64,000 nucleotides of DNA from a virus. The stretch is from positions 1-64,000 of IMG/VR virus record IMGVR_UViG_3300032087_003094; one strand, given 5' to 3'. Below the pieces are notes generated by a model that was not told the DNA's origin, did not search any database, and saw nothing but the letters and a program-made list of their open reading frames with translations. Below, piece by piece: positions 2,709 to 46,837 of the stretch (the first letter of the stretch is position 1; each line of letters begins with the position of its first letter). The translations under genes were made by a program, and so were the position numbers.

Positions 2709-2741
2709 AGATTCATCAGATAAAGTTAAGGAATAAATTAA

Positions 2742-3119: not shown

Positions 3120-3202
3120 AACTAAAATCAAGAGCATTAACATTCTTTGAAATGTGGCTAATTATATTATCAATGCTAGCTATTTACGGAGTGATATTCT
3201 AA
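3116..3202 (+). CDS. Single-span membrane peptide
   Basis: 28 residues: a short basic head (MKLKSRA), then a hydrophobic helix. Coupled to both neighbours by overlaps (ATGA upstream, TAATG downstream). Unit B has an unrelated-sequence but equally sized single-span peptide in the same position (43446-43541). That positional conservation supports a real, perhaps superinfection- or membrane-related, function. Confidence 0.55.
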   Translation: MKLKSRALTFFEMWLIILSMLAIYGVIF

Positions 3203-3375
3203 TGAAAACAGAAACTCAAGAAATGGAGAGCAATTTAGCTCTCGCATGGTTCGAGGGTGTTTATACTCAAGACCAAGCGCAGGTATCGGCTGAGCTGCAA
3301 AGTGTAAGCTTTGAAAATGTAGTCAATGAATACTCAAAACTTTATCACGAAACGGAGAGCTTGAGTAATGGATGA
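3202..3375 (+). CDS. Conserved small early protein (unknown)
   Basis: 57 residues from ATG 3202 (TAATG overlap); an upstream in-frame start at 3154 would extend into the membrane peptide gene and is rejected. The sequence ETQEMESNLALAWFEGVYTQ is nearly identical to the unit B protein at 43538. Acidic helical protein directly upstream of the annealing-protein gene in both units, overlapping it by 8 bp. Confidence 0.7.
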   Translation: MKTETQEMESNLALAWFEGVYTQDQAQVSAELQSVSFENVVNEYSKLYHETESLSNG

Positions 3376-3817
3376 ATTAGATAGATTCAAGCGGCCGTTC
3401 TCTGAAAATGAAATACATTGGAGGGTTGGCAGAAAATCAAAGGATGGAAACACAGCGACTGCTCTAGCTTATATTAACGCTAGAGATGCAATGAAAAGGC
3501 TTGACGAGGTCGTTGGGATTGATGGCTGGCAAGATGATTACCAGGAAACAGCAACAGGTCGAGTTATTTGTAAGTTGTCCGTGAAAATTGGCGATCAGTG
3601 GATAACTAAATCCGATGGTGCTGGCGGGACTAATATTGAAGGTGAGAAGGGTGGCATATCTGACGCATTTAAAAGAGCTGCGGTTAAGTTTGGTATAGGC
3701 CGATACCTATACTATCTTGATGGGTCTCGTTATTTACCTGTCGATAAATGGGGGAAATTTACAACCCTCCCTCAACTGCCAGATTGGGCAAAACCTAAAA
3801 AGGATAAAAAGCAATGA
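3368..3817 (+). CDS. Rad52/22-like single-strand annealing protein
   Basis: 149 residues. FKRPFSENEIHWRVGRKSKDG, ALAYINARDAMKRLDEVVG..GWQDDY, then EKGGISDAFKRAAVKFGIGRYLYYL are hallmark blocks of the phage Rad52/Rad22-type annealing family. Such proteins anneal complementary ssDNA during recombination and repair and are usually neighbours of SSB-like proteins, as here. The unit B counterpart at the same position is an Erf-family protein, a non-homologous replacement. The basic C-terminus (KPKKDKKQ) overlaps the next gene by 4 bp. Confidence 0.9.
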   Translation: MDELDRFKRPFSENEIHWRVGRKSKDGNTATALAYINARDAMKRLDEVVGIDGWQDDYQETATGRVICKLSVKIGDQWITKSDGAGGTNIEGEKGGISDAFKRAAVKFGIGRYLYYLDGSRYLPVDKWGKFTTLPQLPDWAKPKKDKKQ

Positions 3818-4311
3818 CTGCATTATATGAATTAACTGATCAATACAACAAAGCTCTAACCGAGCTATTAGATATTGAAGGCCTAGACAGTGAGTCATTC
3901 AGTGACACAATGGAAGGTTTGGAGCTAGAGCTTAAAGATAAGCTTTTTAATACTGCTGCCTATATGCAGAATATTGAAGCCGATGCAAAAGCCTTAAAAG
4001 AGGCCGAAGATAGAATTAAAGCAAGGCGAATCATTATTGAAAATAAAGCCAAACTACTAAAAGAGTACGTAAGATTTAATCTCGAACTGTCTGGGATCCC
4101 AAAAATTGAACGCCCAGAGTTTAAGCTGTCACTAAGAAAAGGTGTCGAATCTGTAAATGTGAAAGAGGAATCGTTAGTCCCTCAGAAATACATTGTTACT
4201 AAAACAATAAAATCAGTAGACAAAAAGCTAGCAGCAAAAGCTTTAAAATCCGGCGAAATTATTAACGGCCTAGAGCTAAAGCGCGGCAAGTCGTCACTAG
4301 TAATTAAATAA
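3814..4311 (+). CDS. Gp157 family phage protein
   Basis: 165 residues. A long helical N-terminal half (LYELTDQYNKALTELLD...AAYMQNIEADAKALKEAEDRIKARR) is followed by the compact end containing GIPKIERPEFKLSLRKG and VPQKYIV. This order is typical of the siphovirus Gp157 family, which often sits beside annealing proteins and SSBs. Members have been linked to phage resistance, but the mechanism is unclear. There is no counterpart in unit B. Confidence 0.85.
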   Translation: MTALYELTDQYNKALTELLDIEGLDSESFSDTMEGLELELKDKLFNTAAYMQNIEADAKALKEAEDRIKARRIIIENKAKLLKEYVRFNLELSGIPKIERPEFKLSLRKGVESVNVKEESLVPQKYIVTKTIKSVDKKLAAKALKSGEIINGLELKRGKSSLVIK

Positions 4312-4341
4312 ATCAACCATTAACCACAAAAGGGTAATTAA

Positions 4342-4659
4342 ATGAAATACGGTGTAAATCTTAAGATTGACGTTTCAAAGATTGAAAAAGGTAGATTATT
4401 CAAAGGAGCTAAAGGTACTTATTTGGATGCTCAAGTGTTTATCGATGTTAATAATGTTGGCGAATTCGGTGATAACGGAATGATAGTTCAGCAAATAACC
4501 AAAGAAGAACGCCAAAACGGCGTGAAAGGGCAAATACTGGGCAATGCCACAGTGTTCTGGAAAGGTCAGAGTGATAACAATCAAACTAAACAGCAAACAC
4601 CAAGCCAGCCTCAAGAGCAGAGCTTTGATAATAGTTTTGACGACGACATACCCTTTTAA
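4342..4659 (+). CDS. SSB-like DNA-binding protein with SSB acidic tail
   Basis: 105 residues. The body (1-77) does not show the canonical bacterial SSB motifs seen in 44383-44844. The last 11 residues, [11 protein letters not shown], are identical to that SSB's tail and form the classic peptide that recruits host repair proteins. A Q/N/P-rich linker precedes it. It lies downstream of the annealing protein, in the SSB slot. I infer a non-canonical ssDNA-binding protein. Confidence 0.7.
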   Translation: MKYGVNLKIDVSKIEKGRLFKGAKGTYLDAQVFIDVNNVGEFGDNGMIVQQITKEERQNGVKGQILGNATVFWKGQSDNNQTKQQTPSQPQEQSFDNSFDDDIPF

Positions 4660-4679
4660 CCATAAGGAAGGTAACGAGA

Positions 4680-4961
4680 ATGAAAATTAATAAATTTATA
4701 ACTATTTCAAGTAGAGGTTCTTGTCGTTTAACAGCTTCTAGCCCGCGCTTAGAAGTGGATGAAATATCTATGAACTTAAAGATAGAAATACCTGACGCTA
4801 TTTTTAAAAAGCCAAGACTTGAAGCTAGTATCACCGTTCCAGATGAGGCTGCAGCTACCGAAGCAATGAAAAGCATTGTCTACGATAATGTTGAAGAAAT
4901 TGTCAATCAAGCAACTGGACTGAATTTTTCAATTTCAGTAAAGAAATATGACGATGAATAA
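4680..4961 (+). CDS. Hypothetical early protein
   Basis: 93 residues, possibly with an alternating beta/alpha fold (SMNLKIEIPDAIF, ASITVPDEAAATEAMKSIV). The RBS region is the recurring AACCATAAGGAAGGTAACG junction element. The 3' end overlaps the start of the truncated ORF at 4954. Function unknown. Confidence 0.6.
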   Translation: MKINKFITISSRGSCRLTASSPRLEVDEISMNLKIEIPDAIFKKPRLEASITVPDEAAATEAMKSIVYDNVEEIVNQATGLNFSISVKKYDDE

Positions 4962-4986
4962 CCTAACACAAGAGCAAGCTAAATAA
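4954..4986 (+). pseudogene. Ten-codon remnant of an early gene
   Basis: ATG at 4954, then NNLTQEQAK and TAA at 4984-4986. It has the exact start and stop contexts of the 80-residue protein at 45937-46179, but 210 bp are missing. Breakpoints fall in ACAAGAGCAAG versus ACAAGAGAAAG, so this is a direct-repeat deletion. It preserves the ATG overlap with the next gene. Confidence 0.6.
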
Positions 4987-5411
4987 TGACGTCCTTTACC
5001 ATAAACTCAAAGCAAGCAGTGGAAAGCTTCCAAGAGTTTATACAAGAAGAATTCATAAAAGAAAAATACTTGATAGCTAAGATAGTCAAGGCTACTAGGC
5101 TGCAAATACAAAACCGATGGATTCAAAAGTTTTATAATATGGTATCAGGTCAAACAGGACAACCAAGGCAAACGCTAGTCAACCACTGCAAGTATTATCA
5201 CGGCATGCCTATACTGTTAGCAGACCAGCCAGAACAAGCGGAACTATGGCGTAAAATGATGATTCCGTTAACAGAGCAAGAAAGGCTTGCAGCTATGGAA
5301 ATAACAGCTGTAACAAGCTTGATGGACGTTCACGAGTGTTCAGATTATATTAAACAATTAATAGCTCATTTTGACCACTGTGAGCTACCAAGAAAACAAT
5401 GGAGAGAGTAG
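4986..5411 (+). CDS. Conserved early protein, possibly NinB-like
   Basis: 141 residues, about 97% identical to 46179-46604. The opening MTSFTINS, then YLIAKIVKATR and a Gln/Trp-rich helical middle, is faintly reminiscent of NinB recombination proteins, which also lie upstream of ninG. The closing TSLMDVHECSDYIKQLIAHF would fit a small helical domain. The NinB link is weak; the conservation and the position near ninG are what can be seen. Confidence 0.7.
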   Translation: MTSFTINSKQAVESFQEFIQEEFIKEKYLIAKIVKATRLQIQNRWIQKFYNMVSGQTGQPRQTLVNHCKYYHGMPILLADQPEQAELWRKMMIPLTEQERLAAMEITAVTSLMDVHECSDYIKQLIAHFDHCELPRKQWRE

Positions 5412-5725
5412 TGATAATTCTAAAAGATGATGAATGTCTTGAAAAGATGGAGCCTCTAAGGGAGGAGTGGGCGCAAGAAGCTATCGATAAATACAAAAAA
5501 ATGATTATTGATCTAGATGCGCTTCACCTTAAAGCCTTCGCAGATCAATCAAACCCATCATTAACTATGACAAGTTATAGCAATATTAAGGCGATCGAAG
5601 CGAGAAAGGCAATCATAGAAGACCCATTCAGAAAAGCGCTACTCAAGCAAATTACCCTCTTAATGCAATTTGACAAACCTAGATTTTTGGTGGCTAAACA
5701 AAGAATAAATAATGCCAAACGCTAA
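5399..5725 (+). CDS. Hypothetical early protein
   Basis: 108 residues, charged and helical, overlapping the previous gene by 13 bp and the ninG-like gene by 14 bp. It has no resemblance to the 81-residue protein in the same slot of unit B (46592). Function unknown; a swapped accessory gene. Confidence 0.6.
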   Translation: MERVVIILKDDECLEKMEPLREEWAQEAIDKYKKMIIDLDALHLKAFADQSNPSLTMTSYSNIKAIEARKAIIEDPFRKALLKQITLLMQFDKPRFLVAKQRINNAKR

Positions 5726-35755: not shown

Positions 35756-35869
35756 ATGAATAACGAGCAAGATAACGCAACAGAGGGTCAAGTAAGCCTA
35801 TTATGGCTAGGATTAATTGCGCTAGGATTTTGGTTAAGCGCATTATTTATAGGGTGGTTAGTGTCATGA
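35756..35869 (+). CDS. Single-span membrane peptide
   Basis: 37 residues: polar acidic N-terminus then one span (LLWLGLIALGFWLSALFIGWLV). Overlaps the following ATG by 4 bp. Confidence 0.5.
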   Translation: MNNEQDNATEGQVSLLWLGLIALGFWLSALFIGWLVS

Positions 35870-36315
35870 GAACCATTCAAAGCAGAATACAGCACTGTAA
35901 AAACAGAGTTCCGATCGCCGCGCCAAAAGTTGAAGAAAGCGCAAAGCTTCAAGCTGATGTGGACGCGTGGCTAGCGAAGGGTAACGAGATTTACGACGCT
36001 GATAAAAAAGAGGCTAATTTCAGGAATGATATTGAAAAATCTCGAGCCTACAAAAGGCGCACCAAGCCAGTATTAAACCTATCCATGTGGCGCTTTAGAG
36101 GTGAAGATACCATCCTAACCACTAAAGATATGGTCAGAGTTTTAGAGTGCTCCAGCGATTGGGTTGTGACTGAATACACTAAGAAACATCTTATTCCAGC
36201 GCCCTATAAAATCAGAGATTTAGATGGAAAAGTAAAAATAACCAAGAAAAATCACAACGCCAACTATTGGAAGTTAGGCGATTTAATTAAACACAATAAG
36301 GAGCTAGAAAAATGA
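35866..36315 (+). CDS. Winged-helix/excisionase-like DNA-binding protein
   Basis: 149 residues from ATG 35866; the in-frame ATG at 35803 lies inside the membrane-peptide gene. ILTTKDMVRVLECSSDWVVTEYTKKHLIPAPYKIRDL (about 85-122) resembles a MerR/excisionase-type helix-turn-helix. Basic overall. No integrase is present for an Xis partner, so a regulator is more likely. Confidence 0.55.
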   Translation: MRTIQSRIQHCKNRVPIAAPKVEESAKLQADVDAWLAKGNEIYDADKKEANFRNDIEKSRAYKRRTKPVLNLSMWRFRGEDTILTTKDMVRVLECSSDWVVTEYTKKHLIPAPYKIRDLDGKVKITKKNHNANYWKLGDLIKHNKELEK

Positions 36316-36533
36316 GACAATCAACCGAACTAAGCAACTTAGTCGCTAGGCACCTGCAAGGCCAAGTACCACCTACCGTAGTCAACGAGTTTAACAAGCT
36401 AATTGTAAAAATGCGTAAAGATGAATCAACTATTGCGGATGCTGTGGATAAGTTTGAAGCTATCCACAACCCTCAAGTTGGAGCAAACAACCTAAACGGT
36501 GAAATTCTTAAGGGGAAGCTTTTTGAAATTTAG
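36312..36533 (+). CDS. Small helical protein
   Basis: 73 residues (LSNLVARHLQGQVPPTVVNEFNKLIVKM...ADAVDKFEAIHN), probably all-helical. 4-bp overlap upstream; unknown. Confidence 0.5.
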   Translation: MRQSTELSNLVARHLQGQVPPTVVNEFNKLIVKMRKDESTIADAVDKFEAIHNPQVGANNLNGEILKGKLFEI

Positions 36534-36684
36534 ACTTGAATCGCTCGTGAAGAGCTACAACAAGCCTAAGAAGCGCGATATAGAGAAAGACGTAGAAGTT
36601 ATCGATTTAGAAGAGAAAACGCCGTCAGAGCCAGATTTCGAGCTTGCTGACGCCATGATAGAGTATTCTAGGGAGAAATTATGA
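36523..36684 (+). CDS. Small charged protein
   Basis: 53 residues from TTG 36523 (RBS AAGGGG). A start at 36499 would lie deep in the previous gene. Basic head, acidic tail (DIEKDVEVIDLEEKTPSEPD). Overlaps the next gene by 4 bp. Confidence 0.45.
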   Translation: MKFRLESLVKSYNKPKKRDIEKDVEVIDLEEKTPSEPDFELADAMIEYSREKL

Positions 36685-36917
36685 AAGATGCTATTTTAGT
36701 TGTGCTAATTGTCTTTACGGCTGCTCTTAGCTTTATCTTTGGTGCGATATGGGAGCAGAGGCAAAATTTCAAGAAAGGTCGCCAACCAACATGCCAAAGC
36801 GAATTAAAAGACCCATGCCAAGAGATACACGGGTTAAACACTAAAGGCATGCGAGATTACAAGCCTAAGTATGACCGTAATTTAAAACAAGTAGTATTAA
36901 CATGTGAGGTGGAGTGA
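36681..36917 (+). CDS. Single-span membrane protein with CQSE motif
   Basis: 78 residues. N-terminal span (ILVVLIVFTAALSFIFGAIW) then GRQPTCQSELKDPC. The next gene has the same layout, and a 20-bp identical DNA segment (36786-36805 and 37031-37050) covers PTCQSE. Likely a duplicated gene pair. Confidence 0.5.
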   Translation: MKDAILVVLIVFTAALSFIFGAIWEQRQNFKKGRQPTCQSELKDPCQEIHGLNTKGMRDYKPKYDRNLKQVVLTCEVE

Positions 36918-37114
36918 TGAGAAGCGCGATAATCGGGTTTTGTATAGGCTTATTGGCTACAATGATTGCTTTTCTAGCGGTTCTCACTTTCAGGTTTCTG
37001 TTGATTGTCAATTTTGGCGACCCGCAGCAGCCAACATGCCAAAGCGAATTCAGCCAGCAAATCAACCAGTATCGAGTATGGCCAGAATATCCCACACAAG
37101 GGAAAGCGGCCTAA
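36917..37114 (+). CDS. Membrane protein paralogous to the previous gene
   Basis: 65 residues from ATG 36917 (TGATG overlap; GTG 36914 is an alternative). N-terminal span (IGFCIGLLATMIAFLAVLTFRFLLIV) then PQQPTCQSEF. Shares the motif and a 20-bp DNA identity with 36681-36917. Confidence 0.5.
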   Translation: MRSAIIGFCIGLLATMIAFLAVLTFRFLLIVNFGDPQQPTCQSEFSQQINQYRVWPEYPTQGKAA

Positions 37115-37145
37115 TCGAATAGTCATTGAATGCGAGGATAAGTAG

Positions 37146-37370
37146 ATGAAAATAGAAACGAGAGCAACTTTATATGATTGGGTAGAGTTTAAGGTTGAAT
37201 GTGGTAGCACAGTAATTAACGAGGATATTCATCCAGAGCAGGCGGCCGACCTAATTGAGCAGCTTGAAAGCGCTATAGACGATCTAAAAGGGCTAGCTAG
37301 AGAGGTTGATGTTGAAGAGATATTCGCAGGGACCAGAAAGAAAGTCGAATCTTTAAATATTAGAGGATAA
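37146..37370 (+). CDS. Small acidic protein
   Basis: 74 residues, beta N-terminus (RATLYDWVEFKVECGS) then a helix (PEQAADLIEQLESAIDDLKG). RBS GAGGATAAG. Unknown. Confidence 0.5.
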   Translation: MKIETRATLYDWVEFKVECGSTVINEDIHPEQAADLIEQLESAIDDLKGLAREVDVEEIFAGTRKKVESLNIRG

Positions 37371-37376
37371 CAAACA

Positions 37377-37685
37377 ATGAGCATAGAAAACCATAAGTGG
37401 AGTGATGAAGATTTAAGTCTTTTTGACACCTCTGAATCTGAATATGCAGGGTTATTATTTAGCCTAAGATGCAATTCTATCATGAGTTCGTTTAGCGATT
37501 TTTACATCAACAAACAAGACGCCATAGCTATAGCCAAACACTTTAACGTAGACAATGAGTCTCTAGTGGAGGGTATAAAGGAGTTGATTAACTCTGTTGA
37601 CTGCTCGTCTTGCTGCCCAAACACAGAGGTATTCTCAATTGACGACCTACAAAAACTAATAACTAAGGAGGATATAGAAGAATGA
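37377..37685 (+). CDS. Acidic protein, possible anti-defence or host-interaction protein
   Basis: 102 residues, net strongly acidic, with a CSSCC cluster near residue 78. No family recognised. Size and acidity resemble small phage inhibitors, which is only an impression. Confidence 0.45.
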   Translation: MSIENHKWSDEDLSLFDTSESEYAGLLFSLRCNSIMSSFSDFYINKQDAIAIAKHFNVDNESLVEGIKELINSVDCSSCCPNTEVFSIDDLQKLITKEDIEE

Positions 37686-37918
37686 GTAATGTAATAGAGT
37701 TTCCGCAAACTGATGTTGAGTATATATTCAACAGTACTGGCGAAATTGTAGAGTCAATTATCATCGATTTATCAAGACTAAAAAGCATCGAACTAAGAAG
37801 GGATGAGTCAGACGAAGTCAGAGGCCGCATAACTAGACTGTGTATTGCTTGGCTAGCTTTAGAGAATCCAGAGGTATTAAATTTTGATGATGAATTAAAT
37901 GAGGAGGATGGAGAGTGA
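37682..37918 (+). CDS. Small acidic protein
   Basis: 78 residues (VIEFPQTDVEYIFNSTGEIVESIIIDL...), ending in an acidic tail. 4-bp overlaps on both sides. Unknown. Confidence 0.5.
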   Translation: MSNVIEFPQTDVEYIFNSTGEIVESIIIDLSRLKSIELRRDESDEVRGRITRLCIAWLALENPEVLNFDDELNEEDGE

Positions 37919-38148
37919 ATGATATAGAGTTTATTATCTTGTGGTTTTTGTCTGGATTTTTGCCATTTTTATTATCAGGGATTGTGATGGAATCAAGAAG
38001 CCCTAAAATTGATTTTGAGTTGGTGTCGCTTTCGATTTTGTCTGGCGGCTTTGGATTTTTATCGTTTTTTTTATTTTTTCCAGTATTTATATTTATTTGC
38101 TTCCAAAGGGTATTCTTTTTTATTAATGATAGGAGGGCTAGACAATAA
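37915..38148 (+). CDS. Two-span membrane protein
   Basis: 77 residues from GTG (GTGA overlap). Two very hydrophobic segments (FIILWFLSGFLPFLLSGIV; LSILSGGFGFLSFFLFFPVF) and a basic end (NDRRARQ). Last gene before the structured RNA region; the RNA promoter overlaps its stop. Confidence 0.55.
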   Translation: MNDIEFIILWFLSGFLPFLLSGIVMESRSPKIDFELVSLSILSGGFGFLSFFLFFPVFIFICFQRVFFFINDRRARQ

Positions 38149-38166
38149 CCAAGAATGAGGTATAAT
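38139..38166 (+). promoter_or_regulatory. Near-consensus promoter driving the RNA locus
   Basis: TAGACA (38139-38144), 16-bp spacer, perfect TATAAT (38161-38166). Expected start about 38172-38174, a few bases before the first structured element. No ORF follows for about 680 bp. Confidence 0.75.
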
Positions 38167-38171
38167 TAAAA

Positions 38172-38309
38172 GGCTGATTGAAACCGGCGTCAAGAATCAC
38201 AAAACGAGAAAGAGACTTTAAGTAAGAATCCAGAAGCCTAGTTGTTAAATCGTTTTGTGTAACTAGAGATGCTTGTTTCAACTGGGTTCTTTCTTAAGGT
38301 CTTTTTTTT
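38172..38309 (+). ncRNA. Predicted double-pseudoknot small RNA
   Basis: Stem B: 38214-38233 with 38282-38301, 20 bp with one T-T mismatch, followed by T8 (38302-38309). Inside it are AAGC/GCTT (38234-38237, 38271-38274) and CTAGTT/AACTAG (38238-38243, 38261-38266). Two upstream strands pair back: CACAAAACGA (38198-38207) with the apical loop TCGTTTTGTG (38250-38259), and TTGAAAC (38178-38184) with GTTTCAA (38275-38281). Looks like a terminated, compact RNA. Not recognised as a known family. Confidence 0.7.
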
Positions 38310-38332
38310 CGCCTCAAGTTTCCTCAGTAAAT

Positions 38333-38446
38333 AGATGATATATGTGGTGGAGTTAGTTGTAACCGTGGCGCGCGGATATAGTTACATGCTGGCAATGGCC
38401 TTATTCAGTTGACTAGACCGGCCTAGCTCCCCTTCATATATCATCT
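38333..38446 (+). ncRNA. Structured RNA domain 2
   Basis: A perfect 12-bp closing stem, AGATGATATATG (38333-38344) with CATATATCATCT (38435-38446), stacks on GGAGTTAG/CTAGCTCC (38349-38356, 38423-38430). Inside, TGTAAC/GTTACA (38358-38363, 38381-38386) and a GGC/GCC-rich arm make a multibranch. No ORF. Whether it is joined to the upstream RNA by read-through is unknown. Confidence 0.6.
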
Positions 38447-38447
38447 A

Positions 38448-38566
38448 CAATTAGCATATCAACGACCACTTGTCACAGATTGGGTTTAAGTCCCTTTTGG
38501 AGATAACTGGCGGGAATATTAATTCCGACGATGCCGTTTCAATAGGTGACGTTGATATGCTAATTG
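38448..38566 (+). ncRNA. Structured RNA domain 3
   Basis: A perfect 17-bp closing stem, 38448-38464 with 38550-38566, begins 1 nt after domain 2 ends, so the two may stack coaxially. Interior arms: ATTG/CAAT (38479-38482, 38540-38543), GGC/GCC (38509-38511, 38533-38535) and GGAAT/ATTCC (38513-38517, 38522-38526). Confidence 0.62.
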
Positions 38567-38668
38567 ACAAGTCCTTAAGAATTTAGATTCTTGTTCAGCA
38601 AAAAATGAAAATGAATGCCTATAGCTAAAGGCTTTAAACAGCAAATTTACAAAGTTTTACATTTTCTA

Positions 38669-38786
38669 CTTATCACTACGACATTTAGACCGTGGACAAA
38701 GCAGGTTAAGTTGATGTGCCAACTATCTTAAGCTGGATATCGGAGCGACAACTCTAAAAACTGTTCTGCATATTGAGAGTGATAAG
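38669..38786 (+). ncRNA. Structured RNA domain 4
   Basis: A 9-bp closing stem, CTTATCACT (38669-38677) with AGTGATAAG (38778-38786), encloses CCG/CGG (38690-38692, 38741-38743) and a bulged hairpin (38702-38735). A separate hairpin AAGAAT/ATTCTT lies just before it (38577-38592). Confidence 0.55.
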
Positions 38787-38797
38787 AATATAGATTT

Positions 38798-38827
38798 ACC
38801 TTTATATCAACTAAAGGTCTAATGACC
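38798..38827 (+). promoter_or_regulatory. Mutually exclusive hairpins upstream of early gene
   Basis: ACCTTT/AAAGGT (38798-38803, 38813-38818) competes with GGTC/GACC (38816-38819, 38824-38827), just before the RBS of the 38851 gene. Possible attenuation or translational switch; short stems, so tentative. Confidence 0.35.
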
Positions 38828-38850
38828 ACTATTAACTAAAGGAAAACAAT

Positions 38851-39108
38851 ATGAAAGTAGAAGAAACACTGAAAGAGCGAGGAGAGCGATACGGAAGCTT
38901 TGATGGTTATGCACTGCAATTAGAAGCATTGAAAAATGCGGTTGATTTGGAGGCTTCGTCACTTAATTGTGTGCACAAAGCCGGAATGGAGATGATATTA
39001 ACTAAAATAGCTAGGATTATGAATGGCGATCCTGATTATGTTGATAACTGGCATGATATAGCTGGATATGCAACATTGGTAGAAAGAGATATTGAAAAGA
39101 ATTTTTAA
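38851..39108 (+). CDS. DUF6378 family phage protein
   Basis: 85 residues: TLKERGERYGSFDGYALQLEALKNAV then HKAGMEMILTKIARIMNGDPDYVDNWHDIAGYATLVE, the conserved pattern of DUF6378. The His/Glu-containing helices recall all-alpha NTP pyrophosphatase-like proteins, which is a guess. RBS AAAGGAAAA. First gene after the RNA region. Confidence 0.8.
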   Translation: MKVEETLKERGERYGSFDGYALQLEALKNAVDLEASSLNCVHKAGMEMILTKIARIMNGDPDYVDNWHDIAGYATLVERDIEKNF

Positions 39109-39127
39109 CTAAATAGGAGATAAGAGA

Positions 39128-39553
39128 GTGATAGCAAACGTAATGGTAAAAAAGAATATTGATGTTAAGTACCTAAAGGTTTCGGCGAATGTTCGATATT
39201 GGGGAGATTCAGAAATTAACGGCGAAATGTCAGATGATGAAGGTGAGGGAGTCCCGTTTAAAAATGCAGAGTTATGGGAGCCTGTCATTGATGTTGATAA
39301 AGGGGCGGTTTGTGACTGGCCTATTGGTACTGTAGCAAAATTTCATTTTAAGGTTTGCGATGCTGGCAGTTACTATTTGTTGGATGATAACTTTAATGAA
39401 TTGTTATCAAGGGTAAATAATTACGTTCCTGACGGTTTATGTCATGGCGATGAAGGATATGGGGATTATATTATTTTTGATGTAGGGCAGGACGGCTGTA
39501 TAGTTAACTATTCAAATAAAATTAATATTGAAGATTGGGAAGGAGAGCAATAA
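39128..39553 (+). CDS. Conserved early phage protein (unknown)
   Basis: 141 residues from GTG 39128 (RBS AGGAGA). Beta-rich; VSANVRYWGDSEINGE and ELWEPVIDVDKGAVCDWPIGTVAKFHFKVCD, then IIFDVGQDGC. Widespread-looking phage hypothetical; function unknown. Its last 91 bp are duplicated at the window start, placing the unit junction inside this gene. Confidence 0.75.
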   Translation: MIANVMVKKNIDVKYLKVSANVRYWGDSEINGEMSDDEGEGVPFKNAELWEPVIDVDKGAVCDWPIGTVAKFHFKVCDAGSYYLLDDNFNELLSRVNNYVPDGLCHGDEGYGDYIIFDVGQDGCIVNYSNKINIEDWEGEQ

Positions 39554-39555
39554 CA

Positions 39556-39804
39556 ATGAGTAACAAGTGTAAAAATTGTGATTCAGGTATTTATTGCCAT
39601 GATTGCGGGGTGTGTGGAGAGTGTCACACTAGAAAGATATGGGTATTAAAAGAGCAAATAGAGCAACTACAAAAAGAGAATGAGGAAAGCTTTAGAAAGG
39701 GTTTTTGGGCTGGATATGAAGACGCTAGATGCTTTCCTGATGAAAATAACATATTGCAGCGCTATGCAGCTCTGACTGAAAATAGGAATAGCAATGACCA
39801 ATAA
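39556..39804 (+). CDS. Small early protein with zinc-finger-like N-terminus
   Basis: 82 residues from ATG 39556. NKCKNCDSGIYCHDCGVCGECH carries six Cys (two or three CxxC), then the same QLQKENEESFRKGFWAGYED tail as 100-345. N-terminal exchange between the two units is clear. Confidence 0.75.
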   Translation: MSNKCKNCDSGIYCHDCGVCGECHTRKIWVLKEQIEQLQKENEESFRKGFWAGYEDARCFPDENNILQRYAALTENRNSNDQ

Positions 39805-39825
39805 AATAATAATACACAACCAGTC

Positions 39826-39840
39826 AAACTAGTTTATAAT
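39826..39840 (+). promoter_or_regulatory. Early-operon promoter core with palindrome, unit B
   Basis: Palindrome AAACTAGTTT (39826-39835) abutting TATAAT (39835-39840), the same as 367-381 in unit A. Confidence 0.55.
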
Positions 39841-39848
39841 ACATATAC

Positions 39849-39896
39849 GCGGCTAGGTTTAGCGACCGAAAAACAAACCCCTTATTTGTTTGCCGC
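39849..39896 (+). promoter_or_regulatory. Structured leader hairpin of early operon, unit B
   Basis: GCGGC (39849-39853) pairs with GCCGC (39892-39896); an inner AAACAAA/TTTGTTT stem (39871-39877, 39885-39891) is specific to this unit. Position and basal stem match 389-445. Confidence 0.5.
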
Positions 39897-39933
39897 TCAT
39901 ATTTCATAAGGGCTGATGCTAAAGGAGCGTTAA

Positions 39934-40447
39934 ATGATAGATCTAAAAACCTGCACAAGAGCCGATTTTATAGAGGCTTACACAAATCTAGAAAACTCTC
40001 ACAAGCACCTAGAAAGCGAAGTTCATCATCTTAACGAGCGCCTGCAGGAATACGAAGGCATTCAAACTGATGATGAAAAGGAGGCGGAGTTTCAAAAAAT
40101 TCTGGACGATGTACGAAAAGAAAGGAAATCTCAAAACTACCCGAACTAGGTGGAATAAGCTAAGCAATAAGAAAAAGAAGCTAATATTCGACCACCTGCC
40201 AAAGTATGTGAAATCAACCTACAAAGATGCTCGATACCCATCAAGAAAAAATGCAGAGGTCTACATTAGTAAAGAAGCATGGCTTGATGAAATTATTGAG
40301 AATAAAGACTATCAGAAGTTTTCACCACAGCCAGCGGTAGGAAGCGCATCATTTAAACCAAGCCCGATAAAAAATAGAAGCAAGGAGCTAGATAGGCTTA
40401 GAGAGCAGAGTAAATCGGTTAACATTAAAGAGAGGTTAGGGTTATGA
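39934..40447 (+). pseudogene. Frameshifted replication-associated gene
   Basis: 514 bp versus 513 bp for the intact unit A gene (487-999). An A6 run at 40094-40099 (unit A has CAGAAATTC) shifts the frame and gives a stop after 71 codons; the remaining protein continues in the +1 frame from within the same region (ORF 40070-40447). The frame is otherwise intact and conserved, so it may be recent mutation, sequencing or consensus error, or slippage expression. Confidence 0.65.
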
Positions 40448-40629
40448 GTAGCAATAACTGGATAGATGTGAATCACTGTAGATTATGTGGCGGTCCTATA
40501 AATTATGATAGGGGTATAGTGCTGACAAGTTCACCACCTCAATATTAAGGGCGATGCCAAGATTGCGGAGATTTAACAAATAGATTGTGCGGCGAGGTTG
40601 ATCAAAACACCAACAAAGCAAAAGGATAG
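40444..40629 (+). pseudogene. Small Cys-rich protein gene with in-frame stop
   Basis: 61 codons if read through an in-frame TAA at 40546-40548. Upstream HCRLCGG..., downstream GRCQDCGDLTNRLCGEV: two Cys pairs that would form one zinc site are separated by the stop. Unit A has a deleted version (2195-2278). Either both are decayed, or the stop is read through. Confidence 0.55.
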
Positions 40630-40635
40630 TAAATA

Positions 40636-41373
40636 ATGATTGAGATACATAATATTGATTGCATGGAATATATGAAAAGCATGAGTGATGAAAGCGTTGA
40701 TTTGATTGTTACCGATCCGCCTTATGATATAAAAAACACAACATCGGGCGGCGACTCCGATCTTTCTCGCAGCATCCAATCTCAACATGATCAATTAATC
40801 AGAGACAATATAACCAACTCCATAGATTATTCTAAAGTTTGCGCGGAGATGGTTAGAGTCTGTAAGAAGATAAATATCTATATATGGTGCAACAAAGCCC
40901 AAATTCCCTACTATTTGAAAGAGTTTTACGCCGATAGGGGCTGCTCGTTCGATATTATTAAATGGGTTAAAACAAATCCCGTACCGGCTTATTGCAACAA
41001 ATATATGACAGACACCGAATATTGTTTATATTTCAGGAAAGGCGGTTATTGCATGCCTCAAAATTCGTCTGATGCATCAACGCTATATAGTGCACCAATA
41101 AACCAGCTAGATAAAAAGAAATATAAACATCCAACCATAAAACCTGTTGATATCCTCAAGCGGCTAATAAGGAATAGTTCAAAAGTTGGCGATCTGGTAT
41201 TTGATCCTTTTGCTGGTTCGGGTAGTACGGGGGTTGCATCAGCGATTGAAGGCAGGGGGTTTATAGGGTGTGAGCTTTTGCAAGAATATACCGATATTGC
41301 TAGGTATAGAGTAAGCGAGATAATAGGGGGCAACAAAGTCAACTCTCACACTGGTCAAGCGGCACTGTTTTGA
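40636..41373 (+). CDS. DNA adenine/cytosine-N4 methyltransferase (beta-type motif order)
   Basis: 245 residues. DPPY (27-30) comes first and FDPFAGSGSTGVAS (about 196-209), the SAM-binding motif, near the end; HPTIKPVDILKRLI between them is motif X-like. DPPY favours N6-adenine. It is an orphan with no restriction partner, likely for protection from host restriction or regulation. Occupies the early region where unit A has a PAPS-reductase-like gene. Confidence 0.9.
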   Translation: MIEIHNIDCMEYMKSMSDESVDLIVTDPPYDIKNTTSGGDSDLSRSIQSQHDQLIRDNITNSIDYSKVCAEMVRVCKKINIYIWCNKAQIPYYLKEFYADRGCSFDIIKWVKTNPVPAYCNKYMTDTEYCLYFRKGGYCMPQNSSDASTLYSAPINQLDKKKYKHPTIKPVDILKRLIRNSSKVGDLVFDPFAGSGSTGVASAIEGRGFIGCELLQEYTDIARYRVSEIIGGNKVNSHTGQAALF

Positions 41374-41540
41374 ACTGGTCAAGAAAGCACAAATACTACA
41401 CTGATAGCGGCCCATATAGAATATGCTGGACAGATGCTAGGCCACCGCTATTTATGTGTAGTTATAAGAAAGAGTTTATTGGCAAGTCGAACAATGCCGA
41501 TGAAGCCAGGCGAATTTGTGAAAGCCATTCACTCACCTGA
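41370..41540 (+). CDS. Small conserved phage protein
   Basis: 56 residues from TTG 41370 (TTGA overlap). Homologue of 2282-2449 (KYYTDSGPYRICWTDARP). The 3' end overlaps the convergent repressor gene by 12 bp. Confidence 0.65.
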   Translation: MNWSRKHKYYTDSGPYRICWTDARPPLFMCSYKKEFIGKSNNADEARRICESHSLT

Positions 41541-41699
41541 AGCTACAAAGCTAGAGTTATTCTCTTTTTCAAGTTCTTCTTCTATCAGTTGAGCAATGAT
41601 ATCCTGTTTTGTTTTGATGATAGCATCTCTATTTTTTCTGATAGCCGATAAGGTGCTTAAGTTTTCGTTAGCCAAGTCTGAGATTTTAATTGTTTTCAT
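41529..41699 (-). CDS. Ribbon-helix-helix-like repressor
   Basis: 56 residues on the minus strand. MKTIKISDLANENLSTLSAI then KTKQDIIAQLIEEELEK fits an Arc/CopG-like strand-helix-helix. Same locus and divergent arrangement as the HTH repressor of unit A (2472-2660), and both proteins end in the same GE-stop context (GGTGAGTGA). Likely the switch repressor of unit B. Below the usual ORF length cut-offs, so easy to miss. Confidence 0.65.
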   Translation of the reverse strand: MKTIKISDLANENLSTLSAIRKNRDAIIKTKQDIIAQLIEEELEKENNSSFVASGE

Positions 41700-41709
41700 G
41701 TATTCACCT

Positions 41710-41755
41710 AAGTAGTCAAAAAAGTAGTTGCATAATTAGTAAGATGAAGTATACT
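41710..41755 (+). promoter_or_regulatory. Rightward promoter with direct-repeat operator
   Basis: TTGCAT (41728-41733), 16 bp, TATACT (41750-41755). AAGTAGT occurs twice (41710-41716 and 41722-41728, 12 bp apart), matching how RHH proteins bind tandem sites. From the -10 onward the leader equals that of unit A (2703-2741). Confidence 0.65.
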
Positions 41756-41788
41756 AGATTCATTGGATAAAGTTAAGGAATAAATCAA

Positions 41789-42364
41789 ATGAAAACAACA
41801 TTAGGTAAGATTTGGGAGTTCGGTCCTTGCTGTAGAGAGGATGAGTCTGGCGGGTGGGGTTTGCTAACTAAAAACTTAGGAACTAGCGATCACTCAAAAG
41901 AAGTTGATTTGATGGAAATATTAAAATCAAACGGAATTAAAGATGCAGTTTGGGCTTTAAGATGTTTTGATTATCTTGATTATTGCCTTTTTCTTGCTGA
42001 TGTTGCAGAAAGCGTACTTGATATTTATGAGAAGAAAAACAGTTCAAGCGCTCCGAGATTAGCAATTCAGGCAGTTAGAGATTATAAGGCTGGAGGTATA
42101 ACAAAAGAAAAATTACGATCTGCTGCTGATGCTTATGCTGCTTATGCTGCTGCTGATGCTTATGCTGCTGCTTATGCTGCTGATGCTGCTTCTGCTTATG
42201 CTGCTGCTTATGCTGCTTATGCTGCTGATGCTGCTTATGCTGCTGCTGATGCTGCTGCTGATGCTTCTGCTGCTGCTGATGCTTCTGCTGCTTATGCTGA
42301 TGCTAGATCAAAAAAATGGGATGAAATAGAACAATTATTCATTAAGCATTTTGGAGATAAATAA
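41789..42364 (+). CDS. Early protein with alanine-rich repeat tract
   Basis: 191 residues. N-terminal CREDESGGWGLLTKNLG, LMEILKSNGIKDAVWALRCFD matches a widespread phage/prophage family whose C-terminal part is A/Y/D repeats. Here residues 112-172 are only Ala, Asp, Tyr and Ser. Then KKWDEIEQLFIKHFG closes it. Inserted between the switch promoter and the conserved gene at 42365; absent from unit A. Function unknown. Confidence 0.7.
   Translation: MKTTLGKIWEFGPCCREDESGGWGLLTKNLGTSDHSKEVDLMEILKSNGIKDAVWALRCFDYLDYCLFLADVAESVLDIYEKKNSSSAPRLAIQAVRDYKAGGITKEKLRSAADAYAAYAAADAYAAAYAADAASAYAAAYAAYAADAAYAAADAAADASAAADASAAYADARSKKWDEIEQLFIKHFGDK
42122..42304 (+). repeat. GCT/NAT trinucleotide repeat tract
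   Basis: 61 consecutive codons drawn only from GCT, GAT, TAT and TCT; every Ala is GCT. In-frame expansion or contraction by slippage would change length without frameshift. Confidence 0.85.
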
Positions 42365-42742
42365 ATGAGTCAATTAACATTTTTCGAACAGTATGTAGAA
42401 TCAGTATTCGGCCTTGAAGATGTAACTTACATCTCAGACGAGCAAGCGCTATCAAATCTAGGTTTTATGCAAGTCAACCATCCTGATGAGTATCAAGAGA
42501 TAATCGACCAAGTAAACGCAAGCTATGAGCCGCCAGAGGGTAAAGAATGCGACCTCGATGAATTAACAGACGCTATCACTAATAGAAACCCAATGAAGTT
42601 CGTTGTGGAATTAGAGCGATTAATGATAGTCGAGTTCAAAGCTTACATTGATGAAGTTCAGCAAGAAATCGCATACAAGAGTGCAAATCCAGAGCGTGAC
42701 GGCTCTTATGAGACTAAGCAAGCAAGGGAGATGGTGTTATGA
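42365..42742 (+). CDS. Conserved early phage protein, acidic (unknown)
   Basis: 125 residues; near-identical to 2742-3119. Overlaps the next gene by 4 bp. Unknown function but evidently core. Confidence 0.8.
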
Positions 42743-43449
42743 GAGAGATTAAGTTCAGGGCGTGGGATAAAGATAAAAGCAAGGGTTATCTGATGCACGG
42801 CTATCAGTATAGAAAAGCTGAATATCACCCTTTAGCCACTTCTCGCGGTTATGTTTTAGAGCATAGGCTTGTTATGGAGAATCATCTTGGTAGGTATTTG
42901 GAAAAAGGGGCGGTTATCCATCATAAAAATGGTGTTAGAGATGATAACAGGTTGGAAAACTTAGAGTATCATCAAGAGCAGTCTAGGCACGCAAAGTCAC
43001 ATGATTCCGGAGTTAGAAATAAAAACGGGCAGTTTGTTGCAGAATCGCAAGAATTTCAAAACAAAAAATTTAAACTTTTTAATAAAAATTCTAAACAGGT
43101 TCAAATTTTTACTCTGCAAAAGCTTATATCTACAACATTTAGAAGAAGTCAATTTGAGTATTGCGGAGAGTTTACCGGTCTAAAAGACAAGAATGACGTT
43201 GAGATTTATGAGGGGGATATAGTTAAAGTAGTATATGAGGAATATCCAGATGAAGATTTTGCGATCGGAAAGGTGTGGTGGTTTCAATGCTATTATCCGG
43301 CTTTTGATGTTTATGTTCCTTCGGAGCGAGCAAAGACAGGATTTGAAAGCTACTCTGATGGATATAACGCGTTCACATGCGATGAAATATCAATTGAGGT
43401 AATCGGCAACATCTACGAAAACCCAGAACTACTAGAGGTTAAACAATGA
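42739..43449 (+). CDS. YopX protein interrupted in frame by an HNH endonuclease
   Basis: 236 residues. [12 protein letters not shown] (1-12) is the YopX start and [29 protein letters not shown]...[16 protein letters not shown] the YopX end. Between them (about 18-132) is a HNH nuclease: [40 protein letters not shown] plus a NUMOD-like tail ([12 protein letters not shown]). Usual YopX is about 120-150 residues. No self-splicing residues are visible, so it is a fusion or invasion, not a clear intein. Confidence 0.85.
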
Positions 43450-43541
43450 AACTAACAATAGAAGAAAGAAAAGAGCTAGCATGGGTAATAGCTGGCTGCA
43501 TATTTTTAATATCATTAATGAGTTTGGTGGAGTCGATATGA
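43446..43541 (+). CDS. Single-span membrane peptide
   Basis: 31 residues: charged head ([11 protein letters not shown]) then one span. Same position as 3116-3202 in unit A. Overlaps the next ATG by 4 bp. Confidence 0.55.
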
Positions 43542-43720
43542 AAACAGAAACGCAAGAAATGGAGAGCAATTTAGCTCTCGCGTGGTTCGATGGTGTTTAT
43601 ACTCAAGATCAAGCACAAGTATCTGCCGAGCTTCAAGGGTTGAGTTTTGAAAATATAGTAAACGAATACTCAAAGCTTTATCACGATGCAGAAAGCGCGG
43701 GGGCTTATCAATGGAATTAG
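43538..43720 (+). CDS. Conserved small early protein (unknown)
   Basis: 60 residues from ATG 43538; an upstream in-frame start at 43481 is inside the membrane peptide. Homologue of 3202-3375 with a different last ten residues, where the adjoining annealing gene changes family. Confidence 0.7.
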   Translation: MKTETQEMESNLALAWFDGVYTQDQAQVSAELQGLSFENIVNEYSKLYHDAESAGAYQWN

Positions 43721-44367
43721 TAGAAAAATTAGCAAATATTCAACAACGCTTAGTTGCGCCAAAAGGGCAAACTAACAAGTTTGGCGGGTACAAATATCGA
43801 TCTTGCGAGGATATTTTAACGGCCTTAAAACCATTACTTGATGATTGCGCGCTTACCATTACCGACGAAATTCAAATGATAGGCGACCGCTTTTATGTAG
43901 TCGCAACAGCAACATTAACAAACGGCAAAGACTCAATTAGTGTTAAAGGCTACGCTAGGGAGTGCGAAAGCAAAAAAGGGATGGATGATAGCCAGTTAAC
44001 CGGCTCGTGTAGCAGCTACGCTAGAAAGTACGCCCTAAACGGCTTGTTCTGTATTGATGACTCAAAAGACGCTGATGCGATGGACAATAGAAAACCGCAA
44101 CTGCCAAGCAAGCTAAAAAAGATTTATCAGCAAGCGCGTGAGCACTACGATGCTGGTGATTTGCAGGCGGTTAGAGAGGTTTTAGCTAGCTTTGAAATGA
44201 TTGAGCAACAAAGAGCGGTAATGCTTGAGTTCGTATCAAATGAAAGAGCGGCAATAACCAAATATGTAAAAGAAAACGCGGATAGTCGGTGCGATGTCCA
44301 AAAAGCGGATTACTTAACAGCGAAAGAGCATGATCAACTGTGTAAAAACTACGGATTCAACGGATAA
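43711..44367 (+). CDS. erf: Erf-family single-strand annealing protein
   Basis: 218 residues. LANIQQRLVAPKGQTNKFGGYKYRSCEDILTALKPLLDDCALTITDEI and KGYARECESKKGMDDSQLTGSCSSYARKYALNGLFCIDDSKDAD are classic Erf blocks, with SYARKYAL the core. Promotes annealing and circularisation or recombination. Replaces the Rad52-like gene of unit A. Confidence 0.92.
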   Translation: MELVEKLANIQQRLVAPKGQTNKFGGYKYRSCEDILTALKPLLDDCALTITDEIQMIGDRFYVVATATLTNGKDSISVKGYARECESKKGMDDSQLTGSCSSYARKYALNGLFCIDDSKDADAMDNRKPQLPSKLKKIYQQAREHYDAGDLQAVREVLASFEMIEQQRAVMLEFVSNERAAITKYVKENADSRCDVQKADYLTAKEHDQLCKNYGFNG

Positions 44368-44382
44368 CAAAAGGGTAATAAA

Positions 44383-44844
44383 ATGAAAGGCGTAAACAAA
44401 GCAATAATAGTGGGGACGTTAGGTAAAGACCCAGAAATTAGATACGCTCCAGCAGGCGCAGCAATAACAAATATCAGCGTTGCAACAAGCGAAAGCTGGA
44501 AAGATAAAAATTCTGGCCAAAAACAAGAGAAGACAGAATGGCATCGAGTGGTATTTTTTGGGAAGCTGGCTGAAATTGCTGGCGAATACTTGAAGAAAGG
44601 CTCTCAAGCTTATATTGAAGGCAAGCTTCAAACCCGTAAATGGCAGGATAAACAAGGTCAAGACCGTTACACAACTGAAATCGTTGTTGATGGCTTTAAC
44701 GGCGTTATGCAAATGTTAGGCGGCAAGGGTGACAACAATCAAGCAAAGCCGCAATCAGAAAGTCAAGGTAGTCAACAATACCAAAAAGACGCACAGCAAG
44801 CGCAGCAATTTGATAATAGCTTTGACGACGACATACCCTTTTAA
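44383..44844 (+). CDS. ssb: Single-stranded DNA-binding protein
   Basis: 153 residues. [71 protein letters not shown] is the canonical OB-fold SSB. A Q-rich linker leads to the FDDDIPF interaction tip. Paired with Erf upstream. Confidence 0.95.
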
Positions 44845-44857
44845 CCATAAGGAATAG

Positions 44858-45088
44858 ATGATGTTTGAATCGGTAGCGGTATGGGCAGATGTTGGGCATG
44901 GAAAGTTTTTAACTAAAGACAGACACCTTACTAGTAGAGAGGCTCGGACAGTCTGCGAATTGTTGGAGAAAAACGGCTTTGGAGGTGAGGGTTTAGTATT
45001 TCCAGAGTCAACAGAGGTTAGAGAAATTAACACCGACGGCTCGCACTTAACAGAATTCGAGAAAAAAGCTGGCTTCGACGGTAAATAA
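44858..45088 (+). CDS. Small hypothetical protein
   Basis: 76 residues (second Met at 44861). SVAVWADVGHGKFLTKDRHLTSREARTVCELLEKNGFGGEG... No family recognised; between two junction elements. Basic-acidic mixed, probably soluble. Confidence 0.6.
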   Translation: MMFESVAVWADVGHGKFLTKDRHLTSREARTVCELLEKNGFGGEGLVFPESTEVREINTDGSHLTEFEKKAGFDGK

Positions 45089-45105
45089 TCAACCATAAGG
45101 AATAG

Positions 45106-45237
45106 ATGATGGGACCAATAAGATTTAGTTTTAAACCATTAGTGGTAATAGCCATTCTTCTTTCTGCGGTTGTAGGGTGGGCGGTCATAGAACTTTTGAT
45201 ATGGCTGATTAAAAATGTCAGTGTAACTTTTGGATAA
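45106..45237 (+). CDS. Single-span membrane peptide
   Basis: 43 residues, one span (LVVIAILLSAVVGWAVIELLIWLI). Flanked by junction elements. Confidence 0.5.
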   Translation: MMGPIRFSFKPLVVIAILLSAVVGWAVIELLIWLIKNVSVTFG

Positions 45238-45244
45238 GGAATAG

Positions 45245-45517
45245 ATGATGAGTGTAGGCGGGAAAGTAATAGATCATAAAATATTCGATGAAAAAGTTTA
45301 TATAAACACAACTGACGGTAGTGAGTGCGCTATCTATGTGGAAAGAGACAAAAACTCAGAGTCGGTATCAATTAACGATGTTGTTTGGTGGCAGGGCGAT
45401 AAAGCATACTGGACTACAAAGGATAGAAAGGCTCAGGTTGAAACAGTCTTATTTAGACGCGGCTTTTCTGGTGTTCCTTATCCGCACGACAAGCCAGAAG
45501 TGAAGCCTAAATATTAA
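45245..45517 (+). CDS. Small hypothetical protein
   Basis: 90 residues (ATGATG start). GGKVIDHKIFDEKVYINTTDGSECAIYVERD and SVSINDVVWWQGDKAYWT make a beta-barrel-like pattern known in small phage early proteins. Cassette between junction elements; function unknown. Confidence 0.6.
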   Translation: MMSVGGKVIDHKIFDEKVYINTTDGSECAIYVERDKNSESVSINDVVWWQGDKAYWTTKDRKAQVETVLFRRGFSGVPYPHDKPEVKPKY

Positions 45518-45534
45518 CCAACCATAAGGAATAG

Positions 45535-45801
45535 ATGATGATTGAGCTATCTAATAATCAAATTTCAATACTAGGCAAGCCAAATTTTGCATGCGCACCT
45601 ATTGCAAAACTACTGATAAAGCATTCGATTTATGAAGATAAAGAAAACAAGGCGGAATATGAGCAAGCTGTTTTCATCCATTGGGCGAGTGATTTGCTTG
45701 AAAAATTTGGTGATGGCTGGGTTGATGAAGCAAAAAGAATAATTGACAAGCTGTTAGAAGCCGAATCTTTAATCAACCATAAGGAAGGTAACGAGAAATG
45801 A
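45535..45801 (+). CDS. Small hypothetical protein
   Basis: 88 residues, helical (QAVFIHWASDLLEKFGDGWVDEAKRIIDKLLEAES). Cassette between junction elements; the last codons contain the following junction. Confidence 0.6.
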   Translation: MMIELSNNQISILGKPNFACAPIAKLLIKHSIYEDKENKAEYEQAVFIHWASDLLEKFGDGWVDEAKRIIDKLLEAESLINHKEGNEK

Positions 45802-45944
45802 GGTGGCTTTGGATAAAAATTAGATGTTTCTTTGGTTGGCATGTATGGGCTTGGAAACTTAGAAGCGGGTCAATCATCTATATGCAAGGTGACCCTCCAA
45901 GTGATGTTAAATGTAAATATTGTGGAGAGATATGGGATGAATAA
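45798..45944 (+). CDS. Small zinc-finger-like protein
   Basis: 48 residues: Trp-rich N-terminus (RWLWIKIRCFFGWHVWAWK) and a C-terminal CKYCGE. Related in style to small phage HW.W/CxxC proteins. 8-bp overlap with the next gene. Confidence 0.5.
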   Translation: MRWLWIKIRCFFGWHVWAWKLRSGSIIYMQGDPPSDVKCKYCGEIWDE

Positions 45945-46179
45945 CCTAACACAAGAGCAAGTGAGGGAAAAAAGAATTAATGCGTTTTGGAACGGTGTTT
46001 TACTTAACTGGTATTTTAGTGGTAAGTATTGGTATTGCGGGACAGCTAAAAGAAATGCCAAAGTGAATGGAATAACTTGCAGAAAAAGTGGCAGCGGAAA
46101 CAACAAAGACGAGGCTTTTCAGGATTTTAGGAATGCTAATGGGGTTTATGATTGTCAGCCACAAGAGAAAGCTAAATAA
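45937..46179 (+). CDS. Small AP2-like or DNA-associated protein
   Basis: 80 residues from ATG 45937; an in-frame upstream start at 45832 would overlap the preceding gene fully. YWYCGTAKRNAKVNGITCRKSGSGNNKDEAFQDFRNA has a beta-beta-alpha feel. The unit A copy is reduced to ten codons (4954-4986). Confidence 0.6.
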   Translation: MNNLTQEQVREKRINAFWNGVLLNWYFSGKYWYCGTAKRNAKVNGITCRKSGSGNNKDEAFQDFRNANGVYDCQPQEKAK

Positions 46180-46604
46180 TGACCTCTTTCACCATAAACT
46201 CAAAACAAGCCGTTGAAAGCTTTCAAGAGTTTATACAAGAAGAATTTATAAAAGAAAAATACTTGATAGCTAAGATAGTCAAGGCCACAAGGTTGCAAAT
46301 TCAAAATCGATGGATACAACAGTTTTACAATATGGTGTCAGGTCAGACAGGCCAGCCAAGGCAAACGCTAGTCAACCACTGCAAGTATTATCACGGCATG
46401 CCTATACTGCTAGCAGACCAGCCAGAACAAGCGGAACTATGGCGCAAGATGATGATTCCGCTAACGGAAGAAGAAAGGCTTGCAGCTATGGAAATAACGG
46501 CTGTAACTAGCTTGATGGACGTTCACGAGTGTTCAGATTATATTAAACAGTTGATAGCTCATTTCGATCACTGCGAGCTACCAAGAAAACAATGGAGAGA
46601 GTAA
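46179..46604 (+). CDS. Conserved early protein, possibly NinB-like
   Basis: 141 residues; differs from 4986-5411 at only a few positions. Upstream of ninG in both units. The NinB relationship is only suggested by size and position. Confidence 0.7.
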   Translation: MTSFTINSKQAVESFQEFIQEEFIKEKYLIAKIVKATRLQIQNRWIQQFYNMVSGQTGQPRQTLVNHCKYYHGMPILLADQPEQAELWRKMMIPLTEEERLAAMEITAVTSLMDVHECSDYIKQLIAHFDHCELPRKQWRE

Positions 46605-46837
46605 TGAAAGTAGATGAGTATGATGTGCCAAGGCTTATTCAAAAAATGGAATACAGCTACTCTGCAATGGCGTTTACGGTTTTATTCTTTAATGATAGGC
46701 AAAGCTCATTCCCTACTGATCTTGTATGTCCATCCATAGGCTTAATGCAAAGCAAGCCAACAAGAATGCAGTGGCTGGAGGCTGAAAACAATATAAGAAA
46801 ATACGTTGATAAGAATTGGAAATCAATGAATTCTTAA
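46592..46837 (+). CDS. Hypothetical early protein
   Basis: 81 residues from 46592 (ATG 46604, TAATG overlap, is an equal alternative and would give 77). MKVDEYDVPRLIQKMEYSYSAMAFTVLFFN... no family. Fills the slot of the unrelated 5399-5725 gene. Confidence 0.55.
   Translation: MERVMKVDEYDVPRLIQKMEYSYSAMAFTVLFFNDRQSSFPTDLVCPSIGLMQSKPTRMQWLEAENNIRKYVDKNWKSMNS

Follow-up and report, generated by a model that had tools for sequence, protein, structure and literature searches.

Within the window, by which we mean the whole 64,000-nt stretch of the virus record IMGVR_UViG_3300032087_003094 analysed here, the longest run of DNA free of genes covers positions 38149-38850 (702 bp) and holds no ORF of at least 50 or at least 60 codons on either strand. 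The runner-up ORF-less stretches measure 211 bp at the 50-codon limit and 615 bp at the 60-codon limit. A preliminary description of this DNA had reported 702 bp devoid of ORFs of 60 codons or more, and a near-consensus promoter pointing into the block; both observations are borne out, the first with the exact bounds given above. The promoter is of the sigma-70 type (TAGACA-16-TATAAT, 11 of 12 consensus positions; 38139-38166, + strand), with the transcript expected to start at about 38172-38175, and the first downstream gene (85 aa) lies at 38851-39108 on the same strand. About 1 kb downstream of the locus is the sole Rfam match in the window, int-alpA RNA (RF02996, 46 bits; 39846-39912, +), which is likewise a phage RNA but a separate 67-nt element. 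Farther on, an ORF at 41789-42364 (+) contains a long repetitive stretch rich in Ala/Tyr/Asp (AADAYAAAYAADAAS...).

Fold energy and pair composition both favor the + strand. The locus folds 6.7 SD better than its shuffles on this strand and 3.6 SD better on the - strand (z = -6.7 and z = -3.6; 20 dinucleotide shuffles), and on the + strand G-U pairs outnumber A-C mismatches by 20 to 8. Together with the comparisons below, these features make us confident that the + strand of 38149-38850 codes for a structured RNA, representing an undescribed family in marine phages.

The locus recurs within its own record and well beyond it. The record is 74,480 bp long and has a second copy (copy B) at 73154-74083, 35 kb away; the gene upstream of copy B matches that of the window copy, and the region downstream is the same except for one extra small gene. 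Blocks of the record are repeated at 82-95% identity (1-5414 against 39457-46607, and 35756-39247 against 70894-74480), as if two related phage genomes stood in tandem, either as tandem prophages or through an assembly join. Elsewhere, phages of Vibrio and Pseudoalteromonas, together with contigs of IMG/VR, provide more than 25 homologous gene-free loci. The first BLASTN search against phage genomes gave short weak matches only, and the four that were inspected, in Vibrio and Pseudoalteromonas phages, each lay inside a 550-700-bp stretch with no annotated genes or doubtful ones. Repeat searches from those gaps linked more phages, and pattern scans of IMG/VR added contigs. Filtering for three conserved motifs in fixed order yielded 25 loci; in the 3' domain, two of these duplicate others. 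A covariance model of that domain (R1, 193 positions) added L049, L066, L046/L067, L086/L093/L098, L094/L095 and L096, and matched phage BS5 (L035) at E = 0.005. A pattern scan of genome contigs produced, among the matches listed, nearly all chance hits, none of which passed the three-motif filter. R1 found no match in host genomes among the 6-23 candidates scored per genome, which are too few to speak for absence. The plasmid matches to a query from phage Seahorse were discarded, being confined to the tRNA part among the matches listed.

Members of the family share a common plan, in which a sigma-70 promoter is followed by a 5' domain of about 130 nt, a variable linker, a pseudoknotted 3' domain of about 170-240 nt and then the next gene. 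A TTGNNN/TAGACA-16/17-TATAAT promoter stands at the equivalent place in 19 of the 24 members scanned. A promoter 42 nt long with an inverted repeat (CCCCACTTTGCATTTGTGTGGAGTGGG; L009:1627-1668) recurs at 90-100% identity in about 270 Vibrio phage records, where it may serve as a regulated promoter common to these phages; we rejected it as a marker, by itself, of the RNA, since phages K207 and 381E49-1 have it before ordinary genes, without the RNA. Vibrio phage NF has two different members (L033, L034); a phosphatase gene near the terminase follows one of them and a phosphoesterase gene the other.

The 5' domain (38167-38309, +) consists of a leader, a long hairpin P1, two pseudoknots and a terminal U8 run. 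P1, which the preliminary description had noted as a 20-bp stem, pairs its 5' arm (GACTTTAAG.AAGAATCCAG; 38214-38233) with 38282-38301, forming about 19 base pairs that are interrupted once. The leader pairs into the P1 loop twice. In PKa, TTGAAAC at 38178-38184 pairs with GTTTCAA at 38275-38281; in PKb, CACAAAACGA at 38198-38207 pairs with TCGTTTTGTG at 38250-38259. Other members form the same helices with different sequences, for example GTCGAAG/CTTCGAC and TTTGGCGA/TCGCCAAA for PKa, and GGTAAAAGTA/TGCTTTTACC and GATAATTGGT/ACCAATTATC for PKb. When cognate arms were compared with arms swapped among 23 sequences, P1 gave z = 10.6, PKa z = 6.4 and PKb z = 6.6; these values may partly reflect relatedness, because one comparison intended as a control, though an imperfect one (the leader against the last 26 nt), reached z = 4.4. 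The U8 run (38302-38309, +) directly 3' of P1 gives the hairpin a terminator-like appearance, and a short transcript may stop there. A segment at 38569-38581 (+) is complementary at 12 of 13 positions to 38291-38303 in the P1 3' arm; this competing pairing was seen only here and in close relatives of the phage.

A small hairpin, GCCT..AGGC at 38617-38632 (+), leads into the 3' domain and has CGCTTTCTAGCG-type counterparts in relatives. The 3' domain itself (type I; 38656-38837, +) is defined by two alignments (A1 and A2), by pair counts and by R1. Its helix S1 has a two-part 5' arm at 38665-38677 (+), in which S1b (CTTATCACT) pairs with 38778-38786 and S1a (TCTA), past an AATA bulge, with 38791-38794; the 9-bp stem described at first is S1b with its partner (38669-38677/38778-38786). 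Two further helices cross S1 to make a pseudoknot: S2, in which TTAGACC at 38685-38691 (+) pairs with GGTCTAA at 38816-38822, and S3, in which 38709-38718 (+) pairs with 38803-38812. The most conserved segment (38745-38769, +) is a hairpin GCGACA..TGTTCTGC around CTAAAA, followed by ATATTG. PKa, PKb, S2 and S3, none of which a nested fold can show, were missing from the preliminary description. The window locus thus carries every element by which we recognize a type I member: the promoter, P1 with its two pseudoknots, a linker, and S1 crossed by S2 and S3.

Testing the stems for compensatory changes among related phages, as the preliminary description had proposed, revealed extensive ones. In the 3' domain alignment (25 sequences, 28 pairs), 87.6% of cells are paired, and sliding the structure by 1-3 columns lowers this to 30-36%. 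Double-change cells number 105 against 35.1 in shuffles, and the covariation score is 0.391 against 0.153; none of 500 shuffles was as high in either measure. The covariation picture is much the same for S2, S3 and one inner helix when the alignment is trimmed. As a control for relatedness, partners were swapped among 11 sequences less than 80% identical, which gave z = 6.2 for S1 and z = 5.0 for S3, where the highest of 379 control window pairs reached 3.9. S2 is mostly invariant (permutation p = 0.17), but both of its arms are replaced in copy B (TGAGGGT/ACCCTCA) and in phage NF (GACCC/GGGTC). Vibrio phage K43b, missed by R1, forms S1 with 8 perfect base pairs and S2 and S3 with 7 each, in the same knotted order, an arrangement reproduced by none of 500 mononucleotide shuffles.

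These compensatory changes, extending across 90-130 nt and including pseudoknots, speak directly to whether the inverted repeats could instead act as DNA, in a packaging site, an origin or a recombination hotspot. The linker is indeed a hotspot for exchange, and in several phages' gene clusters the locus lies near terminase or head genes. Nevertheless, the promoter is always on one side, one strand prefers G-U over A-C, and the genome position varies, with two loci in phage NF; we therefore regard a DNA element as very improbable.

The same kind of 5' domain is also joined to 3' domains that do not match type I (L034, L037, L041, L223, L225, L229 and L230), so joint action of the two ends is not a necessity. 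A descriptor scan for the type I fold at the 3' ends of L034, L037, L040, L041 and L223 did not rise above shuffles, and we do not claim the fold for these. The 3' parts of two Vibrio phage loci (L223, L225) and of Pseudoalteromonas phage H105/1 (L041) share stretches such as CTCTGTGTG..TTCACAAC and TTGAGTACC, and perhaps represent a second type of 3' domain. A helix S0 linking both ends is weakly supported (p = 0.03).

Between the ends lies the variable linker (38310-38600, +), occupied in this phage by two helical modules. The module called domain 2 (38332-38447, +) is closed by the hairpin stem 38332-38356/38423-38447; described earlier as a perfect 12-bp stem at 38333/38435, this stem is present and perfect at its base, but 84% over the whole arms. 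Domain 3 (38448-38566, +) is closed by the perfect 17-bp stem already noted (38448-38464/38550-38566). The two modules abut with 0 nt between them (38447/38448), not the 1 nt originally given. Copy B and L229 retain the closing stem of domain 2 with a replaced interior, and L230 lacks the domain cleanly; domain 3 is common to copy B and the two IMG/VR contigs L229 and L230. The linker of L012 is short, with nothing sizeable in it. Other linkers contain tRNA genes (L032, L047, L061, L223 and L229): tRNA-Trp/Arg/Gly in Seahorse, tRNA-Ser/Arg in L047 and L061, and a divergent tRNA (36.6 bits) in phage 242E40-1. The linker of NF has a tRNA remnant (21 bits). In L229, the closest relative of the window linker, a stretch of about 1 kb combines a tRNA (39.9 bits) with domains 2 and 3, which lie next to it and are shared with the window locus. 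Linkers differ completely between relatives, and since the content of domains 2 and 3 and of tRNAs varies among L229, L230 and other relatives, the linker is on sequence grounds a place of exchange. The initial picture of four structured domains holds insofar as the structures exist, but they are not equivalent: the conserved ends are domain 1, with P1, and domain 4, while the linker modules, domains 2 and 3, are optional.

This modularity bears on the second half of the earlier proposal, that the locus is either a new large phage RNA or an array of small RNAs. The locus could give rise to two or more products, namely an sRNA of about 140 nt ending at the U-run, tRNAs or hairpins, and a processed 3' fragment; the U-run after P1, the modular 3' ends and linkers that are entirely different between relatives would all be consistent with this. 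Such an array is less likely, however, since the block has a single promoter at its head and its two ends are found again in combination, only the middle being exchanged. No second conserved promoter is seen inside the locus, and the two ends keep a fixed order across more than 20 loci. We consider separate small RNAs unlikely, and a new large phage RNA the best reading, given the lack of an Rfam match, the homologous gene-free loci and the compensatory changes.

The surroundings of the 3' domain bring in the main rival, a cis-acting leader. Here an attenuator hairpin and U-run, with pseudoknots deciding between termination and read-through, and a 3' pseudoknot near the ribosome binding site would control transcription and translation of the next gene behind the promoter. 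All 22 members whose 5' domain could be aligned have a run of T5-T9 immediately after P1, the loci scanned show nothing resembling a terminator behind the 3' domain, and the RNA and the downstream genes point in the same direction. Of 22 members, 20 have a start codon 10-39 nt past the 3' domain, usually with a purine-rich Shine-Dalgarno sequence, a spacing that fits such a leader. On the other hand, almost every member precedes a different gene, and these genes are unrelated, coding for methylases, a phosphatase or short unknown proteins, with no one fixed gene type. The phages of V. breoganii (L008, L039) keep the fold with the next ORF 112-218 nt away and no Shine-Dalgarno sequence, HS5 (L007) and K43b (L221) have no U-run after P1, and tRNA genes within a leader would cut it in processing. 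We judge a cis-acting leader possible, with an appreciable but clearly minority share of our confidence.

The large-RNA reading invites comparison with known phage RNAs. GOLLD and ROOL are large phage RNAs that form cages; the cage of GOLLD is a homo-oligomer, and the level of GOLLD RNA rises during lysis. The preliminary description named GOLLD and ROOL as the nearest idea in size and setting while recognizing neither RNA; of the two, GOLLD proves a good guess. Rfam 15, GOLLD and ROOL included, was searched at relaxed thresholds with the window locus and its relatives, and nothing significant was found except tRNAs. The GOLLD covariance model (RF02032) gave no match at E<=10 on 38100-38900 or at E<=1 on the relatives, and the ROOL model matched neither the locus nor the relatives. 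GOLLD has been described in terms of cage formation and of a 5' region, a tRNA-bearing linker and a 3' region (PMC12286853), and the layout here is the same: a phage-borne large RNA with 5' and 3' regions and a variable linker that sometimes carries tRNAs. In contrast to GOLLD, the fixed parts total about 370 nt rather than about 830 nt, the helices differ, and most relatives have an RNA of about 430-700 nt (L229 alone reaches about 1 kb), whereas GOLLD reaches about 800 nt or more in many members. ROOL likewise occurs in phages and prophages, has a similar length (659 nt in one example), and combines pseudoknots with a variable linker (PMC12286853). Because the layout is that of GOLLD without detectable homology to GOLLD or ROOL, we regard this as a new family with a probable GOLLD-like mode of action, and not as a GOLLD.

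Vibrio phage ICP1 offers a further parallel in its ncRNA of about 800 nt, the most abundant ICP1 transcript (PMC7567579). It too comes from a large ORF-less locus in a Vibrio phage, but unlike the window family it has no tRNAs. We rejected it as a homologue, as R1 had no match in the ICP1 genome (L220) at E<=1 and the descriptor scan was not above shuffles. The ICP1 locus (L220:10098-11108, -) has no Rfam family above threshold and so seems to be a further large phage RNA without a family entry. A literature search of open-licence papers, in which absence is not proof, found no paper describing the present family. In those parts of the Seahorse genome paper that a term search brings up, three tRNAs are present and noncoding RNA is not mentioned (PMC7012835).

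On balance we lean, at slightly better than even confidence for the statement as a whole with the structured RNA included, toward a single large structured ncRNA of about 680 nt in this phage, whose family most likely serves as a GOLLD-like scaffold holding its linker. Transcription would begin at the RNA's own host-type (sigma-70) promoter and run toward the downstream genes of the phage. The 5' and 3' ends would fold independently as pseudoknotted domains joined by the linker and, by analogy with GOLLD, would assemble into a long-lived RNA scaffold, perhaps homo-oligomeric, that is produced in large amounts in the course of infection. The linker would carry cargo, which in some members is phage tRNAs and in this phage the plain helical domains 2 and 3. 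Given a U-run behind P1 and no 3' terminator, a partial stop combined with read-through is suggested: some transcripts may end after the 5' domain, and the rest may continue into the next gene, with the 3' end made by processing. It is tempting to speculate, with distinctly less assurance, that the family is a new class of phage RNA capsule, independent of GOLLD and ROOL, in which the knotted ends form a multimeric shell around an exchangeable linker of tRNA or structured RNA that provides a landing place for tRNA genes.

A further family with the GOLLD layout, without detectable homology and found in cultivated marine phages, would point to a convergent need for such RNAs. It also gives phage-host pairs in which the role of such cage-forming RNAs can be tested by deletion.
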